A stretch of DNA of 64,000 nucleotides from Natronorubrum thiooxidans (GTDB lineage: Archaea; Halobacteriota; Halobacteria; Halobacteriales; Natrialbaceae), in contig NZ_FTNR01000009.1 in the NCBI RefSeq assembly GCF_900156475.1, forward strand, positions 1 to 64,000. Reading direction: 5' to 3'. Under the pieces are notes generated by a model. It was not told the origin of the DNA, did not search any database, and worked only from the letters and a program-made list of their open reading frames with translations. Within the stretch, counting starts at the first letter, position 1, and each line of letters starts with the position of its first letter. This document shows positions 10,573 through 48,336 of the stretch, piece by piece. The translations under genes were made by a program, and so were the position numbers.

Positions 10573-10884
10573 TCACCCTCGAGTCCACCACGGAAGCGCT
10601 CGCCAGAGTCGTGCCAGCAATGGCGGTTCTTCGACCCGAATCCGTAGCGTAGTTCCCTCCGCCTCGAACGTCACGTCGGTCGCGGGAATCCGCTCGCCGT
10701 CGGGCAACCGAACGGACTGCTCGGCAGCCGGGACCGTGCCGCCGCTGGTGGCCCCGAACAGCGTCCGCGGGCGGCCCGTCGGTTCCGAGACGGGCACGCT
10801 GTACTCGAGTTCGTACACTGTCGTCCCGTCGGTCGTCGTTTTCCGCCAGTCGACGAGGTCGCGGTCGTCGTTCGGTCCGATCAT
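10573..10884 (-). CDS. Small hypothetical haloarchaeal protein
   Basis: A 103-residue protein beginning MIGPNDDRDLVDW. It appears to be a beta-rich domain: WRKTTTDGTTVYELEYSVPV, SVRLPDGERIPATDVTFEAEGTTLRIRVEEPP, ending in a Trp-rich LWRALPWWTRG. No signal peptide or membrane segment is visible and I recognise no family. The codon bias matches its neighbours and the start was moved inward from a longer frame to an ATG at 10884. It converges with the four-helix membrane protein gene. Confidence 0.55.
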   Translation of the reverse strand: MIGPNDDRDLVDWRKTTTDGTTVYELEYSVPVSEPTGRPRTLFGATSGGTVPAAEQSVRLPDGERIPATDVTFEAEGTTLRIRVEEPPLLARLWRALPWWTRG

Positions 10885-10986
10885 GCTCGAGAGATTGTAA
10901 CAACTGAAACGATTCACACACTAATTGCACGACACCCATCCGATAGACACTGATTTTCAGTGTCGCTACCGATCCGTGTCGGTTCG

Positions 10987-11838
10987 TTAGTCGTCAGCGG
11001 GTGTTGCCGTTTCGGTTCGGAACGTCGTGGACGTCTCGGCGATGGTCCGTTCGTTGTTCCTGACCCAGTTCAACAACAGGAACGCAAAGATGTATTTAGC
11101 GACGATGTCGAGCCCGGAGTAGCCCCACGAGGTGGTCGCGACCTCGAGAACGGCTAGCCCCTCCGACCCGAGCGCCCAGAAGATCGGGTAGCCAAACCAC
11201 ATAATAACTGTCAGAATCTTCAACAGGTTGAAGATCTCCGCTGTCCCGGCGAGTTCGGCGTCTCTGGGCCACTCGACGAGCAGGACGTACAACACCACGA
11301 GAAAGAACGCACAGCTGATCAGATACCAGAACCACCGCAAGGCGTACGAAGACGTGGTCAACGCGGCGGCAAGACCCGTAATACACATCGCGATATCGGC
11401 GGTGATGATCGTAAACAGTTTCGTCAGGTTCGTGCCTGCCAGCAAGCCAAGCGCCAGCAGGATCATCGGCGTCGATAGCGTCCAGGTCAGGTATCGCCCC
11501 CACATTGTGAGGACTTCCTCGCCTGCAAGGGCGTGTCCAGACGGCATCTCGAGGAAACTGATCGTGAGACCTGACACGAGGCCCAGATAGCTCGAGATCG
11601 AGACCAGCGGCACCAGAATCGTCGCCACGTAGATGAGCTGTGCACGCGGATCCGTCACGGTCCGACCCATATACACGAATAGCAGGATGGAAACCCCTGC
11701 CAGAGCAATGTTCGCCCAGAACGACGCGTTGAGCCACGTGTCCTCCTGGACTGTCTGCATTGTCTCCGCCTGTGTCATCTCGAGTGGGGGGCCAAACTGA
11801 GCGACGGCCCACATCTCGGCCACTACTGATTCTAACAT
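10987..11838 (-). CDS. hop: Halorhodopsin, light-driven chloride pump
   Basis: A 283-residue seven-helix retinal protein closely resembling Natronomonas pharaonis halorhodopsin. Helix C contains GRYLTWTLSTPMILLALG: Arg115, Thr118 and Ser122 occupy the positions that in proton pumps hold Arg, Asp and Thr/Asp, so the chloride-pump signature (Thr in place of the proton acceptor Asp) is present. Helix G has LDIVAKYIFAF, giving Asp244 and the retinal Schiff-base Lys248. The B-C loop (EMPSGHALAGEEVLTMWGRY) is about ten residues shorter than in the N. pharaonis protein. It imports chloride across the cell membrane in light. It stands alone: no bat, brp or crt genes are near. A TATA element lies 25-30 nt before the ATG. 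Confidence 0.96.
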   Translation of the reverse strand: MLESVVAEMWAVAQFGPPLEMTQAETMQTVQEDTWLNASFWANIALAGVSILLFVYMGRTVTDPRAQLIYVATILVPLVSISSYLGLVSGLTISFLEMPSGHALAGEEVLTMWGRYLTWTLSTPMILLALGLLAGTNLTKLFTIITADIAMCITGLAAALTTSSYALRWFWYLISCAFFLVVLYVLLVEWPRDAELAGTAEIFNLLKILTVIMWFGYPIFWALGSEGLAVLEVATTSWGYSGLDIVAKYIFAFLLLNWVRNNERTIAETSTTFRTETATPADD

Positions 11839-36104: not shown

Positions 36105-36107
36105 CTC

Positions 36108-36188
36108 ATACGGGCTGCTGTACCGGTTTACCGCCGATTACCAGAGACGGGTCGGTGATCGGCGGTAATTGACTACAGCAGTCCGTAT
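36108..36188. repeat. Palindromic intergenic repeat, copy 1
   Basis: An 81-bp nested inverted repeat. The outer arms are 36108-36122 (ATACGGGCTGCTGTA) and 36174-36188 (TACAGCAGTCCGTAT, one mismatch). The inner perfect arms are 36128-36138 (TTACCGCCGAT) and 36158-36168, around a 19-nt loop. A copy with about 94 percent identity lies at 42559-42640. It could form a long cruciform or RNA hairpin. It resembles miniature mobile elements (MITE-like) of haloarchaea; the family is not identified. Confidence 0.85.
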
Positions 36189-36261
36189 CACCCCGGGACG
36201 CGATCGACCTGTCGGCACCGAGCCGATGACATAATAGGGCTTGACTGTGATCTTTTCTGTC

Positions 36262-42558: not shown

Positions 42559-42640
42559 ATACGGTCTGCTGTACCGAGTTACCGCCGATTACCAGAGACG
42601 GGGTCGGTGATCGGCGGTAATTGATTACAGCAGTCCGTAT
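42559..42640. repeat. Palindromic intergenic repeat, copy 2
   Basis: An 82-bp copy of the element at 36108-36188, in the same orientation. The outer arms 42559-42573 and 42626-42640 match with one mismatch; the inner arms TTACCGCCGAT / ATCGGCGGTAA match perfectly. The copies differ at about five positions, one of them an inserted G in the loop. It lies in the 362-bp gap between the korA and E2-OsmC start codons (42343-42704), which otherwise holds only promoter-like AT-rich sequence. Confidence 0.85.
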
Positions 42641-42704: not shown

Positions 42705-44513
42705 ATGGGTTACATCGTCAGGATGCCAAAACTCGGGCTGGAAATGGAACGCGGCGAACTCCTCGAGTGGCGGATCGATGCAGGTGGGACCGTCGAGGAG
42801 GGCGAGACGATCGCGGAGGTCGAGTCCGAAAAGAGCATCGCCGAAGTCGACGCTCGAGAGGATGGCGTCCTCAGAGAGACGTACCTCGAGGAGGGTGGGA
42901 CGGTCCCGCCAGGAACACCGATCGGAATCGTCGCGCCCGAAGACGCCGATATCGACGACCTCGAGGCAGAGGCATCGGCCGACATCGAGGAGGCGACGGG
43001 CGAGACGGCGGCCGAGGAGCCAGCAGCCGACGAGCCAGCGGCCGAAAGCGCCGACAGCGGCACGACGAGCGAGACGGCAGCCGCGACGGACACGGCCGAC
43101 GGCGACGTTCAGGCCTCGCCGCGGGCCCGCGAGCGCGCCGCGGAACTCGAGGTCGACCTCTCGAGCGTCGAGGGGACGGGCTACCAGGGGTCGATCACGG
43201 AAGACGACGTCGAAGCGGCCGCCGAATCGGGTGGGGCCGCCGAAGCGGACGTCAACGCATCTCCACGCGCACGCAGTCGCGCCGAGGAACTCGGCGTCGA
43301 CCTCATAACCGTCGAGGGGACCGGGTATCAGGGCTCGATCACCGAAGACGACGTCGAGGACGCGGCCGGCAGCGGCGATCGAACGCCGATCGAAACGCGG
43401 CCCTTCAGCGGGATGCGCCAAACGATCGCCGCCCGCCTCGGTGAGAGCTACCGGGAAGCCGTCCACGTGACGGTCCACCGCAAGGCAGATGTCGAGGCAC
43501 TGTTCGACGCCACCGACGCCGCGGATGAGGTCCTCGAGACCGACGTCTCGATTCAGGACCTGCTCGTACTCGCCATCTCGGCGACCCTCGAGGACCATCC
43601 CGAATTCAACGCGACGTTCGAGGACGAGGTCCACACGCTCTGGGCGGAACACAACGTCGGTATCGCCGTCGACGTCGAACACGGGCTGATCGCCCCCGTG
43701 TTGGGCGACGTCGGGAACAAGTCGCTTGCGACGATCGCCGACGAACGCCGCGACCTCGTTGGATCGGCCCTCGAGGGCGAGTACACGATGGACGACCTCC
43801 AGGGTGGGACGTTTACCGTGACAAACCTCGGCGTCCTCGGCGTGGAGTCGTTCGACCCGGTCATCAACCCCCCGCAGGTCGCCATTCTCGGCGTCAACGC
43901 GATTTCGGAGGCCCCCACACGCGGCCCGAACGACGAGGTGGAGTGGCGACAACAGCTTCCGCTGGATCTCTCCTTCGACCACCGCATCGTCGACGGAGCC
44001 GACGCCGCCCGCTTCCTCGAGAGCCTCGTCGAGCATCTCGAGGAGCCGTGGGCGCTGCTGCCCGAAGAAATCAGCGCCGGAGCCGGCGCGGGAGCGGGTG
44101 CGCCAACGGAGATGCCCGAGCGCACGGTTACGGCACACAACCCCGACGGCATGGCTGGCACGATCGAGGCTGGCTCGTTCGAGTGGGGCTACGACGAACC
44201 CGAGGAGGCCGGCGGCACCGAAACGGGGCCGACGCCAGTCGACGTCTTCCTCGGCTCGCTCGCCGCCTGTCTGTCGCTGAGCATTCGCTTCCAGGCCGAA
44301 AAGCGCGACACACCAGTCAACGGAATCGACGTCACGACGACGGCCGAACCCGAACATGGCGGCGTCGAACACCTCGAGGCGACGGTTCAACTCGAGTCCG
44401 ATGCCGACGACGACACCCTCGATCGACTCATCGATCTGGGCGAGCGGGGCTGTCACGTCTCACAGCTGACTCGAGACGACCTCGAGGTCGAGATCAGCTG
44501 GGAGCGGGTCTGA
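42705..44513 (+). CDS. Dihydrolipoamide acyltransferase (E2) fused to a C-terminal OsmC domain
   Basis: A 602-residue multidomain protein. Residues 1-78 are a lipoyl domain with the lipoyl-lysine at Lys43 (ESEKSIAEV). An acidic Ala/Glu linker leads to two E3/E1-binding domains (about 137-170 and 185-220), both reading SPRAR...GTGYQGSITEDDVE, a duplication. The catalytic acyltransferase domain (about 228-455) ends with SFDHRIVDG, giving His426 and Asp430. A Gly/Ala linker (458-467) then joins an OsmC-like domain (about 470-602) with both expected cysteines, Cys522 (GSLAACLSL) and Cys583 (ERGCHV). OsmC/Ohr proteins are thiol peroxidases known to be reduced by lipoyl groups, so the fusion could be a self-contained lipoyl-dependent peroxidase as well as the core of the oxoacid dehydrogenase encoded convergently. 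E3 is not in the window. Confidence 0.92.
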   Translation: MGYIVRMPKLGLEMERGELLEWRIDAGGTVEEGETIAEVESEKSIAEVDAREDGVLRETYLEEGGTVPPGTPIGIVAPEDADIDDLEAEASADIEEATGETAAEEPAADEPAAESADSGTTSETAAATDTADGDVQASPRARERAAELEVDLSSVEGTGYQGSITEDDVEAAAESGGAAEADVNASPRARSRAEELGVDLITVEGTGYQGSITEDDVEDAAGSGDRTPIETRPFSGMRQTIAARLGESYREAVHVTVHRKADVEALFDATDAADEVLETDVSIQDLLVLAISATLEDHPEFNATFEDEVHTLWAEHNVGIAVDVEHGLIAPVLGDVGNKSLATIADERRDLVGSALEGEYTMDDLQGGTFTVTNLGVLGVESFDPVINPPQVAILGVNAISEAPTRGPNDEVEWRQQLPLDLSFDHRIVDGADAARFLESLVEHLEEPWALLPEEISAGAGAGAGAPTEMPERTVTAHNPDGMAGTIEAGSFEWGYDEPEEAGGTETGPTPVDVFLGSLAACLSLSIRFQAEKRDTPVNGIDVTTTAEPEHGGVEHLEATVQLESDADDDTLDRLIDLGERGCHVSQLTRDDLEVEISWERV

Positions 44514-44540: not shown

Positions 44541-45050
44541 CTACTCGGGATAGGTCATCTCCGGTTCGGGGATCGAATCGACGTTCGCCGCCGTCTCGAA
44601 GATCGTCCCGTTGAGTTCGTCGGCCGTATCGAAGTACCAGTACTCGACGCCGTCGAAGTTGCCGCTCTGGATCACGGGCATGCCGGCGTCTTCGAACGTC
44701 TCGACGACCGCGTGTGGATCGTCGAACGCGAAACAGGCGACGTGGTGGAGCCCTTCGCCATGCTCGTCGAGGTGTTCGGTGTAGATGCTCGGCCCCTCGA
44801 GCGGCTCAATTAGCTCGAGCATCGTCTCGCCGAGTTGGGCCAGCGCCAACCGCATCGAGTACTCGTGGGACTCCCCGCGGAAGGTGCGGTCGGTCAACGC
44901 CGGGGGCTCGAATCGATACACTTGCCACGGGCCGACCCCGAGCAGCCCTTCGAAGCGGTCCATGCCGTCTTCTAAGTCTTCGACGACGAACGCGACCTGT
45001 GAGAGCTCCGGAATCTCGACGTCTAGCTGTGGTATGGTATTCCTAACCAT
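44541..45050 (-). CDS. VOC family (glyoxalase-fold) protein
   Basis: A 169-residue VOC protein. The first half has PELSQVAFVVEDLEDGMDRFEGLLGVGPWQVYRF; the second has GEGLHHVACFAFDDPHAVVETFEDAGMPVIQSGNFDGVEYWYFDTADELNGTIFE. It resembles methylmalonyl-CoA epimerase-like members, with a metal ligand His in GLHHVA and Glu residues at the sheet ends. The reaction is unknown. It lies 72 nt downstream of the AcoX-like gene but has its own TATA element, so it is probably separately transcribed. Confidence 0.85.
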   Translation of the reverse strand: MVRNTIPQLDVEIPELSQVAFVVEDLEDGMDRFEGLLGVGPWQVYRFEPPALTDRTFRGESHEYSMRLALAQLGETMLELIEPLEGPSIYTEHLDEHGEGLHHVACFAFDDPHAVVETFEDAGMPVIQSGNFDGVEYWYFDTADELNGTIFETAANVDSIPEPEMTYPE

Positions 45051-45122: not shown

Positions 45123-46148
45123 TCAGTCCTCGGTCGACTGCAGCCGCTCGGCGTGCTCGAGCGCGCCAGCCTCGACACCGGCTGCGAGCGTCGCATCGAC
45201 GTCGACGAGTCGGGGCCCGTCGGGAACGGGCGTGAGTTCGACCGTCGTTTCGGTGAGTTCGAGTTCGCGTTCGCCATCGGCTCCAACGACGCCGTCGGGC
45301 ACGTCGAATTCGGCGGGCTCGTTCCACTCGAGTCGCTCGATCGACTCGATGCCAACGGTTGCAGTGACGCCCGGAGCGAGCACCGCACGGACGGTCCGTG
45401 CGGCGTCGTCGGGCTCAGTTAATCGAACGGCGACACCGCCCGGCTCGGTCGGCTCGAGGCACTCGACGGCCCCCGCGATGGCGGCGAGCCCGATATCGCC
45501 CGGATGGGCCCGCGAGACGACACCACCGCGGAGATCACCGGAGTCGAGCAGCGCCCGCGTTCCGATAAACGACTGCGCGGACACCTCGGCGGCTGCAAGC
45601 GCCGAGAGCTGTTGTGTGCCCCCTGCGGTCTCCGCGCGGGCCTCGATCATCCCATGGCGCGTGGTCGCGTCGGTCGCCGGAACCACACCCGTCGCGAGTA
45701 GCGCCGCAGCGACGCCCGCGACGGTCCCGTCGACGGCCGTCGGCACGACGTTGTTCGTCCCGGTCGAGACGGCGACCACGGGCACGTCACCGATCTCGCA
45801 GGCGACGTCGCGGGTCGTCCCGTCACCCCCAAGGGCGACGACGACGTCGACGTCGCCCTCGCGAAACAGACTCGCCGCCCGGCGTGTGTCGGCTGCGGTG
45901 CTCTCGACGAGCATCTCGAGTGGTTTTACCTCGAGTCCAGCCGGCGCTTCCTCGAGGACGTGGTCGGAGATGCCCCGTCTGTCGGGCATAACTGCCACGT
46001 CCGGCGGCTCGTCGACCGCCGTCAGTCCGTCGAGGACGCAGGTCGCGACTCGACGCTTCGCGTAGTTGTCGACGACGCTCGCGCCACCGGTGAGCCGCCG
46101 GATATCGCGGCCCGCAGCAGGGTTGACGATCAGTCCGACGCGGCTCAC
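45123..46148 (-). CDS. AcoX-like ATP-NAD kinase family protein
   Basis: A 341-residue protein of the NAD kinase superfamily. It starts VGLIVNPAAGRDIRRLTGGASVV and has the nucleotide motif VVALGGDGTTRDVA (GGDGT at 107-111) and VVAVSTGTNNVVP, as in AcoX proteins found in acetoin dehydrogenase operons. The C-terminal half is a beta sandwich typical of this kinase fold. AcoX has no firmly established reaction. The gene starts 5 nt after the E1 beta stop codon, so it belongs to the E1 operon, consistent with the acetoin-type cluster architecture. Confidence 0.82.
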   Translation of the reverse strand: MSRVGLIVNPAAGRDIRRLTGGASVVDNYAKRRVATCVLDGLTAVDEPPDVAVMPDRRGISDHVLEEAPAGLEVKPLEMLVESTAADTRRAASLFREGDVDVVVALGGDGTTRDVACEIGDVPVVAVSTGTNNVVPTAVDGTVAGVAAALLATGVVPATDATTRHGMIEARAETAGGTQQLSALAAAEVSAQSFIGTRALLDSGDLRGGVVSRAHPGDIGLAAIAGAVECLEPTEPGGVAVRLTEPDDAARTVRAVLAPGVTATVGIESIERLEWNEPAEFDVPDGVVGADGERELELTETTVELTPVPDGPRLVDVDATLAAGVEAGALEHAERLQSTED

Positions 46149-46153
46149 GATGG

Positions 46154-47161
46154 CTATGTCACCCGCCGGATCGCGTCACGGACGTCGTCGCCGGAAGGCA
46201 GCACTTCCTGCTCGAGTGGTGGACTGAACGGGATGTGCGTGTCGGGCGTGCCGACGCGCTGGATTGGCGCGTCGAGGCTGAAGAAGGCCTCTTCTTGGAC
46301 GCGGGCGACGATTTCGGCGTGAGTGCCGTAGGACAGCGGGCTCTCGTCGGCGACGATAAGCCGGCCGGTCTTCTTGACGCTCTCGACGATGGTGTCGATG
46401 TCGAGCGGGTACAGCGACCGCGGGTCGATCACTTCGACGCTCGTGTCGTCGGCCATGTTTTCGGCGGTCTGCAGGGACTCGCCGACGAGCCGTTGGGTCG
46501 CGACGACGGTGACGTCCTCACCCTCGCGTTCGATGGCGGCCTCGCCGATCGGGACGGTGAAGTCCTCGTCGGTCGGCACGGCACCTTTCTGCTCGTAGAT
46601 CATCTTGTTCTCGAAGACGAAGACGGGGTCGTTCGAGCGGATGGCGGCTTTCGTCAGTCCCTTCGCCGACGCTGCAGTCCCGGGGGCGACGGCTTTCAGG
46701 CCGGGGAAGTGAGCGATCCAGGAGTGGACCGTCCCCGAGTGCTGGCTCGCCGCGCCCATGCCGCCGCCTTCGGTGGTGCGGACGGTGACCGGCATCTCCG
46801 CTTTGCCGCCGAACATATACCGCATCTTCGCCATCTGGTTCATGATCTGTTCCATCGCGACGCCGGCGAAGTCGGAGAACATGAGTTCGACGACCGGCCG
46901 CGTGCCGGTTGCCGCCGCGCCCGTCGCTGCGCCCATGAAGCCAGCTTCGCTGATCGGCGTGTCCTTGATGCGCTCCGGGCCGAAATCGTCGTACAGATCG
47001 CCCGTGACCTCGAGGACGCCGCCGAAGACGCCGATGTCCTCGCCGATGAGGAAGACGTCCTCGTCGCGCTCGAGTTCCTCACGCATCGCTTGTCGGATCG
47101 CTTCTCTGACGGTCAGTTCCTCGGTTTCAGTCTCGAGTTCGGATTCTACTTGTGCAGTCAT
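46154..47161 (-). CDS. 2-oxoacid dehydrogenase E1 component, beta subunit (AcoB-like)
   Basis: A 335-residue transketolase-type beta subunit. Features include the N-terminal LTVREAIRQAMREELERDEDVFLIGEDIGVFGGVLEVTGDL, then DTPISEAGFMGAATGAAATGTRPVVELMFSDF, GGGMGAASQHSGTVHSWIAHFPGLKAVAPGTAASAKGL and a C-terminal VADESPLSYGTHAEIVARVQEEAFFSLDAPIQRVGTPDTHIPFSPPLE. With the alpha subunit it forms the decarboxylating E1. Its ATG overlaps the alpha-subunit stop codon by one base (TAATG). Substrate is not settled; acetoin, pyruvate or branched-chain oxoacids are all compatible. Confidence 0.93.
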   Translation of the reverse strand: MTAQVESELETETEELTVREAIRQAMREELERDEDVFLIGEDIGVFGGVLEVTGDLYDDFGPERIKDTPISEAGFMGAATGAAATGTRPVVELMFSDFAGVAMEQIMNQMAKMRYMFGGKAEMPVTVRTTEGGGMGAASQHSGTVHSWIAHFPGLKAVAPGTAASAKGLTKAAIRSNDPVFVFENKMIYEQKGAVPTDEDFTVPIGEAAIEREGEDVTVVATQRLVGESLQTAENMADDTSVEVIDPRSLYPLDIDTIVESVKKTGRLIVADESPLSYGTHAEIVARVQEEAFFSLDAPIQRVGTPDTHIPFSPPLEQEVLPSGDDVRDAIRRVT

Positions 47162-48204
47162 TATCGGTCACCTCCCGGGCGGCCACCGTCCGTGCGGGCG
47201 GCGCTGGCAAAGCGTTCGATCTCCGGCGGCATCTCCGCGAACATGTCTTCGTAGGCCTCGTGTGGTTCCGGTGCTGGAGCGTCCTGGGCGAACTCGATCG
47301 CGGCATCGATTTCGGCCTCGATGTCGGCCTGCAGCTCGTCGAACTCCTCTTGGGTGAGTTCGCCGCGGTCGATCAGGCGCTCTTTGAACGACTCTATCGG
47401 GTCACGCTCTTGCCAGCGTTCGATCTCTGCGTCGTCGCGGTACGGTTCCTCGTCGCCCTCGTAGTGGCCGCGGTAGCGGTAGGTCTCGGCCTCGACAATC
47501 GTCGGCCCGTCGCCCGCTCTGGCACGGTCTCGAGCCTCCGAGACGGCTTCCGCGACCGCGGTGATGTCCATCCCGTCGACGGTTAGGCCCGGAATGTCGT
47601 AGGCCTGTGCCGTGTCGCTCAGGTTGTCGAGGTTGTGCTGGTCCTCGACCGCCGTCCCCTCACCGTAGTGGTTGTTCTCGATGACGAAGACGGCGGGCAG
47701 GTCCCACGTCGCCGCGATGTTGATCGCCTCGTGGACCTGTCCCTGGGCGACGGCCCCGTCGCCGAGGAAGCCGACCGCGATCTGGTCGCGGTCCTGATAA
47801 TCGATCGACAGCGCCGCGCCGGTCGCCATCGGTGGCCCCGCGCCGACGATGCCGTTCGCGCCGAGCATCCCGGCATCGACGTCTGCGATGTGCATCGAGC
47901 CGCCTTTGCCGTTACAGTAGCCCTCGGCCTTGCCGTAGAGTTCGGCCATCATGTACTGTGGGTCGAGTCCCTTCGCGATACAGTGGCCGTGTCCTCGGTG
48001 CGTGCTCGCGATGTAGTCGTCCGGATCGAGTGCGGCGCAGGCGCCGACCCCGACCGCCTCCTCGCCGATATACAGGTGGACGAACCCTGGTATTTCGCCG
48101 TCTGCGAATCGATCCCCCGCCTCCTCGTCGAACGCCCGGATAGTTACCATCCGTCGCAGCGCCTCGAGTCGGCCCTCTGTGCTCTGTAAGTCAAAGTCTG
48201 CCAT
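47161..48204 (-). CDS. 2-oxoacid dehydrogenase E1 component, alpha subunit (AcoA-like)
   Basis: A 347-residue ThDP-binding subunit. FVHLYIGEEAVGVGACAAL is the N-terminal signature, STHRGHGHCIAKG the substrate-channel segment, and GDGAVAQGQVHEAINIAATWDLPAVFVIENNHYG the ThDP motif (GDG...NN). RYRGHYEGDEEPYR is the phosphorylation-loop equivalent. The first gene of the alpha-beta-AcoX operon. A TATATC element lies about 32 nt upstream (48231-48238 region) and a small palindrome (ACCAT-ACA-ATGGT, 48251-48263) lies just beyond it. ATG 48204 (MADFDLQ) is preferred. Confidence 0.93.
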   Translation of the reverse strand: MADFDLQSTEGRLEALRRMVTIRAFDEEAGDRFADGEIPGFVHLYIGEEAVGVGACAALDPDDYIASTHRGHGHCIAKGLDPQYMMAELYGKAEGYCNGKGGSMHIADVDAGMLGANGIVGAGPPMATGAALSIDYQDRDQIAVGFLGDGAVAQGQVHEAINIAATWDLPAVFVIENNHYGEGTAVEDQHNLDNLSDTAQAYDIPGLTVDGMDITAVAEAVSEARDRARAGDGPTIVEAETYRYRGHYEGDEEPYRDDAEIERWQERDPIESFKERLIDRGELTQEEFDELQADIEAEIDAAIEFAQDAPAPEPHEAYEDMFAEMPPEIERFASAARTDGGRPGGDR

Positions 48205-48250
48205 GATCCATACTGATATACAACAATCTTCGATATAAGTGCTAGCAGCC

Positions 48251-48263
48251 ACCATACAATGGT
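48251..48263. promoter_or_regulatory. Small palindrome upstream of the E1 operon promoter
   Basis: ACCATACAATGGT, arms of 5 bp around ACA, lies about 47-59 nt before the E1 alpha ATG and just upstream of the likely TATA element, a typical activator position. No regulator can be assigned. Confidence 0.3.
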
Positions 48264-48336
48264 ACAACTCAGTTGTCACTTTCATCGACCAGTTCGCGAC
48301 AGAAACAATCGAAATCGGTTCCGAACCGAGACTGTC

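Follow-up and report, generated by a model that had tools for sequence, protein, structure and literature searches.

The E2-OsmC gene of Natronorubrum thiooxidans, found in the 64,000-nucleotide stretch of contig NZ_FTNR01000009.1 analysed here (the window), encodes an ordinary E2 subunit joined in one chain to an accessory domain of known fold, OsmC. This architecture is conserved and apparently undescribed so far; no description was found in the searchable literature, from which subscription journals are mostly missing, and a paper on lipoylation in archaea makes no mention of OsmC. With moderate confidence, we interpret the OsmC domain as a separable two-cysteine thiol-redox module that is tethered to a 2-oxoacid/acetoin dehydrogenase complex. 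A previous sequence-only reading had instead proposed a lipoyl-dependent peroxidase. This proposal is not supported, as the Arg and Glu of Ohr proteins are missing from every full fusion, which carries a YhfA-like site instead. Its assignment of the lipoyl arm as electron donor stands in part; the arm, both cysteines, and flexible linkers are present, but the OsmC domain outlives the lipoyl lysine in six lineages.

The gene is a single uninterrupted frame from ATG to TGA (Table 1). A Pfam scan, in which all matches exceeded their curated cut-offs, bore out the domain order initially read from the translation (i.e., lipoyl, two E3-binding, intact acyltransferase, and OsmC domains), with E3_binding matching in two stretches (7.4e-26). 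Lys43, His426, Asp430, Cys522, and Cys583 were found exactly at the positions proposed for them; in an alignment of 28 sequences, Asp430 is at least 90% conserved and the other four residues are invariant. Judged from sequence, the features of an E2 that were examined are present: a lipoyl-lysine, an E3-binding domain, an HxxxD catalytic domain, and nearby E1 genes. The frame continuity of the C-terminal OsmC domain holds as well, both in the window and in 41 other loci, and E2-OsmC is therefore not a sequencing or assembly artefact.

Table 1. Features of the E2-OsmC gene and of the genes that follow it in the window.
Feature	Position	Strand	Extent and basis
E2-OsmC fusion gene	42705..44513	+	602 aa; ORF and translation, Pfam scan, 41 further loci
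Lipoyl domain	42705..42938	+	residues 1-78; Pfam Biotin_lipoyl 5-74, 1.7e-13
Lipoyl-lysine Lys43 codon	42831-42833	+	motif ESEKS; Lys in 42/42 full fusions
First E3-binding domain	43110..43220	+	about residues 136-172; Pfam E3_binding, AF2 model helices 139-148 and 166-175
Second E3-binding domain	43251..43358	+	residues 183-218, best Pfam E3_binding stretch
Acyltransferase catalytic domain	43392..44060	+	residues 230-452; Pfam 2-oxoacid_dh 2.1e-67
Acyltransferase motif DHRIVDG	His426 43980-43982, Asp430 43992-43994	+	28-orthologue alignment
Gly/Ala-rich linker, E2 core to OsmC	44061..44111	+	residues 453-469; sequence, pLDDT <50 at 459-470
OsmC domain	44112..44510	+	residues 470-602; Pfam OsmC 504-597, 5.7e-16
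OsmC active-site residues	Cys522 44268-44270, Cys583 44451-44453	+	Met483, Val512, and conserved Asp513 alongside
Glyoxalase_4 / methylmalonyl-CoA epimerase-like gene	44541..45050	-	Pfam, NCBIfam; synteny
AcoX-like ATP-NAD-kinase-domain protein	45123..46148	-	Pfam NAD_kinase 4.6e-11; conserved position beside E1b
E1-beta	46154..47161	-	transketolase pyrimidine-binding and C-terminal domains; Pfam, NCBIfam PRK09212 above cut-off
E1-alpha (Dehydrogenase E1 component)	47161..48285	-	Pfam E1_dh 1.5e-92; TIGR03182 just under cut-off

AlphaFold2, run with 28 orthologues, predicted confident domains (pLDDT 85-92 for the lipoyl domain and 95.4 for the OsmC domain modelled alone) separated by low-confidence linkers at residues 100-133, 176-181, and 459-470; the last of these bears out the Gly/Ala linker that had been noted between the E2 core and OsmC. 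With regard to the proposed reach of the swinging arm to the OsmC site, the predicted flexibility of the linkers makes contact between lipoyl arm and OsmC domain geometrically possible, but the pTM of the full-chain model is 0.43, and the model thus does not fix the positions of the domains relative to one another. A Foldseek search with the OsmC model returned Ta0195 (2onf) as best match, followed by YhfA (1ml8).

Beyond the divergent intergenic region upstream of E2-OsmC lies a 2-oxoacid:ferredoxin oxidoreductase gene pair; the glyoxalase/epimerase-like gene, which often belongs to the cluster, is convergent with E2-OsmC, and a chorismate synthase gene lies beyond E1-alpha. Across relatives, the fusions usually adjoin genes for E1-alpha, E1-beta, and the AcoX-like protein. 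As the name AcoX was assigned from gene context, and as the acetoin-type label of the complex depends on this AcoX-like gene, both the label and the substrate are putative. While a family search found no E3 gene on the E2-OsmC contig, contig C35 of the same genome carries a second full E2 with a neighbouring E3 candidate, and lipoyl-ligase-family genes are also encoded elsewhere in the genome. Among the immediate neighbours examined, a Pfam scan found no sulfur-oxidation genes. The divergent intergenic region also holds an 82-bp imperfect palindrome (42559-42640; 35-nt arms, 83% complementary, 12-nt loop), with a similar copy at 36106-36190; about 40 similar copies are scattered across the genome, which suggests an element of the MITE or REP kind. 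Contig C42 of genome G000 carries, at 170171-170887, a separate frame of 310 aa that gave two partial matches with the catalytic domain of the E2.

How widely the fusion occurs, a question raised by the sequence-only reading, was answered by searching 392 genomes from the order, from which 58 loci were fetched; after removal of three unusable rows, the resulting set comprised 56 members, including the gene in the window. Full E2-OsmC fusions account for 42 of these members and occur in at least five families of this one order; the remainder are 10 truncated forms and four stand-alone OsmC genes. The lipoyl lysine and both OsmC cysteines are retained in 42/42 full fusions, while the cysteines, as well as an Asp or Glu at position 513, are present in 56/56 members. 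In a tree with other OsmC proteins of haloarchaea and of the wider phylum, the OsmC domains of these 56 members form one group (support 94/95), indicating that the fusion originated once in haloarchaea. No comparably strong match was found outside the order in the phylum sample, and a plasmid collection yielded only one weak relative. A search with the OsmC domain alone identified nine haloarchaeal relatives, including those of Natronorubrum bangense and N. sulfidifaciens (95% and 93% identical, respectively, to the OsmC domain in the window). A long OsmC frame in locus L069 was judged a spurious read-through and excluded from the set. Genome G335, which has an intact fusion, also carries a second, degraded copy of OsmC (L073; C1:3945580-3945941) that is interrupted by in-frame stops and lies next to a glyoxalase fragment; this copy is 63-67% identical to the OsmC domain in the window.

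The complex occurs without OsmC, and OsmC occurs without the complex. In 16 loci with an orthologous catalytic domain (at least 55% identical) and no strong OsmC match in the E2 frame, none (0/16) has a fused OsmC domain, and 14 have the same E1a, E1b, and AcoX neighbours; the OsmC domain is thus accessory. These OsmC-less orthologues end with the PWxLL segment at the C-terminus of the core, directly after which OsmC is joined in the fusions. Conversely, the four stand-alone OsmC genes of the fused clade (L057, L074, L093, and L094), all from one genus, are located beside E1/AcoX genes, with AcoX, E1b, and E1a lying between the OsmC gene and its E2. In L057 and L074, for which the E2 was measured, the lipoyl and E3-binding domains are of the usual kind and the catalytic domain is 31-35% identical to that in the window, an apparent domain swap as judged from these identities. 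In one OsmC-less cluster (L130), a different stand-alone OsmC gene (10820-11290, minus strand) is located immediately upstream of E1a; the copy in L137 looks disrupted.

The truncated forms represent natural deletions in which the OsmC domain was kept. In L058-L063, six genomes from the family to which the window belongs, a short protein joins a lipoyl fold directly to OsmC and is encoded at the same site on the chromosome, between the genes for ferredoxin oxidoreductase and chorismate synthase, and L065 encodes a similar form at a different site. Half a lipoyl domain is left before OsmC in L064 and L066, while L072 has kept the core and lost most of the lipoyl domain together with the E3-binding domains. 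A remnant in L058 that resembles the C-terminus of the catalytic domain is consistent with an in-frame internal deletion. The lipoyl lysine is absent from 10/10 truncated forms, which have T, A, S, G, R, H, or E instead, as compared to Lys in 42/42 full fusions; this loss occurred in at least six independent lineages, with six losses forced by well-supported branches of the tree. As the lysine is missing in every one of them, the short lipoyl-OsmC proteins were rejected as proof of a coupling between the two domains. Neither an orthologous E1-beta nor, apart from that of L072 itself, an orthologous catalytic domain was detected in the ten genomes with truncated forms, although these absence calls are weaker in two genomes, one 85% and one (G089) 70% complete. 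The best E1b in all ten genomes is 40-49% identical, versus 71-98% in five of the six other genomes with full fusions; the sixth (G267) has no E1b orthologue yet keeps the lysine. Estimates of dN/dS for OsmC were about 0.18-0.40 in truncated pairs versus 0.12-0.31 in full fusions where estimable, indicating that the OsmC domain of the truncated forms is functional and under purifying selection. Retention of OsmC in six lineages that lost the lipoyl lysine in cis indicates that the retained function does not require the fused lipoyl group, and retention of the lysine only with the whole E2 chain, nearly always beside E1, suggests a function of the arm in acyl transfer.

The active site of the fused OsmC domain was compared with those of V. 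cholerae Ohr, B. subtilis OhrB, Ta0195, E. coli OsmC, and E. coli YhfA by alignment. The position of the catalytic Arg of Ohr (Arg19 in X. fastidiosa Ohr) is occupied by Met483, with Arg in 0/42 full fusions, and that of the catalytic Glu (Glu51) by Val512, with an acid one residue later (Asp513), as in YhfA; His584, Glu580, and Arg581 are, like Asp513, conserved near the cysteines. The domain thus has the OsmC fold and both cysteines of Ohr/OsmC peroxidases and lacks their Arg and Glu, and two cysteines without the Arg/Glu pair are a feature of YhfA as defined in PMC8945050. The reactivity of Ohr depends on this pair (PMC5962072). In YhfA proteins, the pair is missing and peroxidase activity is not established (PMC8945050); with respect to thiol-peroxidase activity, YhfA has been singled out as the exception within the OsmC family (PMC4069020). 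From its motifs, the fused domain looks like a member of the YhfA subfamily, and a sequence-profile search ranks 1ml8 below Ta0195 and several Ohr proteins. Four truncated copies of three origins (L063, L064, L065, and L066) have an Arg at the Ohr position, which would be suggestive of reactivity re-acquired after loss of the lysine; the association of Arg gain with lysine loss, seen in 3/6 independent pairs, is not significant (p = 0.25).

These results bear directly on the hypothesis of a one-chain hydroperoxidase, according to which the Lys43 arm, reduced either by E1 and an oxoacid or by E3 and NADH, would reduce the Cys522-Cys583 pair, and the OsmC domain would remove organic hydroperoxides. 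Lipoyl groups are described as reductants of Ohr/OsmC proteins (Cussiol et al. 2010, cited in PMC8945050 and PMC10332631), and the joint retention of lysine and cysteines in all full fusions, the predicted flexible linkers, and the E3 candidates and lipoyl-ligase-family proteins encoded in the genome would fit such a system. The Arg/Glu pair needed for Ohr-like catalysis is missing, however, and of the lineages from which most of the E2 chain or the lipoyl domain disappeared, 6/6 also lost the lysine, with OsmC intact. If OsmC were the partner of the arm, the lysine would be expected to outlive E1 and E2, and the opposite was observed. Taken together, the active site and the repeated loss of the lysine disfavour the strict model, in which the fused arm is the necessary donor to a hydroperoxidase, and we consider this hypothesis unlikely; any hydroperoxide reduction would be much weaker than that by Ohr or would proceed by another mechanism, since an Ohr-like site is absent. 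A related idea, which we regard as tentative and doubtful, is that the full fusions are self-contained redox machines whose arm could either transfer acyl groups to CoA or directly reduce the tethered OsmC disulfide, such that oxoacid oxidation or NADH and E3 would drive reduction of an oxidant by a new OsmC mechanism independent of Arg and Glu.

At the other extreme, the OsmC domain may be autonomous and use another reductant, with the fusion merely co-localising the two parts or carrying OsmC as a neutral passenger. Survival of OsmC next to degenerate or halved lipoyl domains, and as a gene of its own, is consistent with this possibility, but occurrence of the fusion in dozens of genomes, with both parts constrained, exceeds what would be expected of a passenger, and seven truncated forms still keep a degenerate lipoyl fold; we judge full autonomy to be distinctly unlikely. 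A structural role, in which the OsmC fold would bridge or reorganise E2 trimers and the cysteines would provide stability rather than catalysis, could draw on the attachment of OsmC directly after the PWxLL anchor of the core and on the finding that active OsmC and Ohr are homodimers (PMC8945050). This role appears improbable, as OsmC is also kept in truncated forms that lack the E2 core on which it would act and as merely structural cysteines would leave the conserved residues around them unexplained. Finally, it seems highly improbable that the two-cysteine site swaps sulfur with lipoyl or low-molecular-weight persulfides rather than acting on peroxides; while lipoate-binding proteins participate in microbial sulfur oxidation, according to PMC6067878, and a different substrate would fit the missing Arg/Glu pair, the neighbours examined include no sulfur-oxidation genes.

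We thus return to a separable thiol-redox module. In the full fusions, the lipoyl arm, E3-binding domains, and core are intact, and most copies have inherited them together with E1. The OsmC domain is a two-cysteine unit under constraint, and the fused lipoyl group is not essential to its retained function, as OsmC persists where the lysine and the bulk of the E2 have been lost. In a 2-oxoacid dehydrogenase complex that is associated with AcoX and probably of the acetoin or pyruvate type, the E2 subunit would have gained a YhfA-type OsmC domain once, with acyl transfer between E1 and E2 remaining the probable main job of the arm. Cys522 and Cys583 would reversibly form a disulfide, with dithiols as reductants, provided either by the lipoyl group in cis or by lipoyl and other carriers in trans; lipoyl reduction by a trans donor or, in the full fusions, by an optional donor in cis is possible. 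The OsmC domain could then reduce some oxidant at or near the complex, with a task that may be protective or regulatory. Three points weigh against this interpretation: the degenerate lipoyl fold kept in truncated forms would be needless for a purely autonomous OsmC domain; two full fusions (L070 and L080) keep the lysine, and the stretch examined showed no E1; and the redox activity of YhfA-type OsmC domains, the disulfide, and the substrate are putative.

The fusion connects the central carbon metabolism of haloarchaea with thiol-redox chemistry, and, as natural deletions in six lineages separate its parts, the need of OsmC for a lipoyl donor can be tested within one gene family, through which the role of YhfA-type OsmC proteins becomes directly testable as well. 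Among known systems, pyruvate/acetoin-type E2 proteins from acoX-E1-E2 clusters have the same lipoyl, E3-binding, and catalytic domains with E1a, E1b, and an AcoX-like gene adjacent, but E2-OsmC has an additional C-terminal OsmC domain and two E3-binding domains. Ohr/OsmC peroxidases (e.g., X. fastidiosa Ohr, E. coli OsmC) share the fold and two cysteines at equivalent positions, and Ohr structures were matched by the OsmC model in Foldseek (E about 1e-8 to 1e-7); they are separate small proteins, however, that are reduced in trans and have Arg and Glu rather than Met483 and Val512. Thermoplasma Ta0195, the best match by both sequence profile and fold, is also a stand-alone protein and, unlike the fused domain, carries an Arg and a Glu where the alignment places the catalytic pair. 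E. coli YhfA shares the P-x-P-hydrophobic-acid motif before the first cysteine and is the second-best fold match (TM 0.82/0.85, rmsd 2.0, only 19% identity), but stands alone. In Trichomonas, OsmC reportedly acts with an incomplete glycine decarboxylase complex, and thus also with parts of a lipoyl complex, in peroxide reduction (Nyvltova et al. 2016, cited in PMC10332631); there, the partners are separate proteins and the parts are those of glycine decarboxylase, whereas here OsmC and an E2 form one chain.
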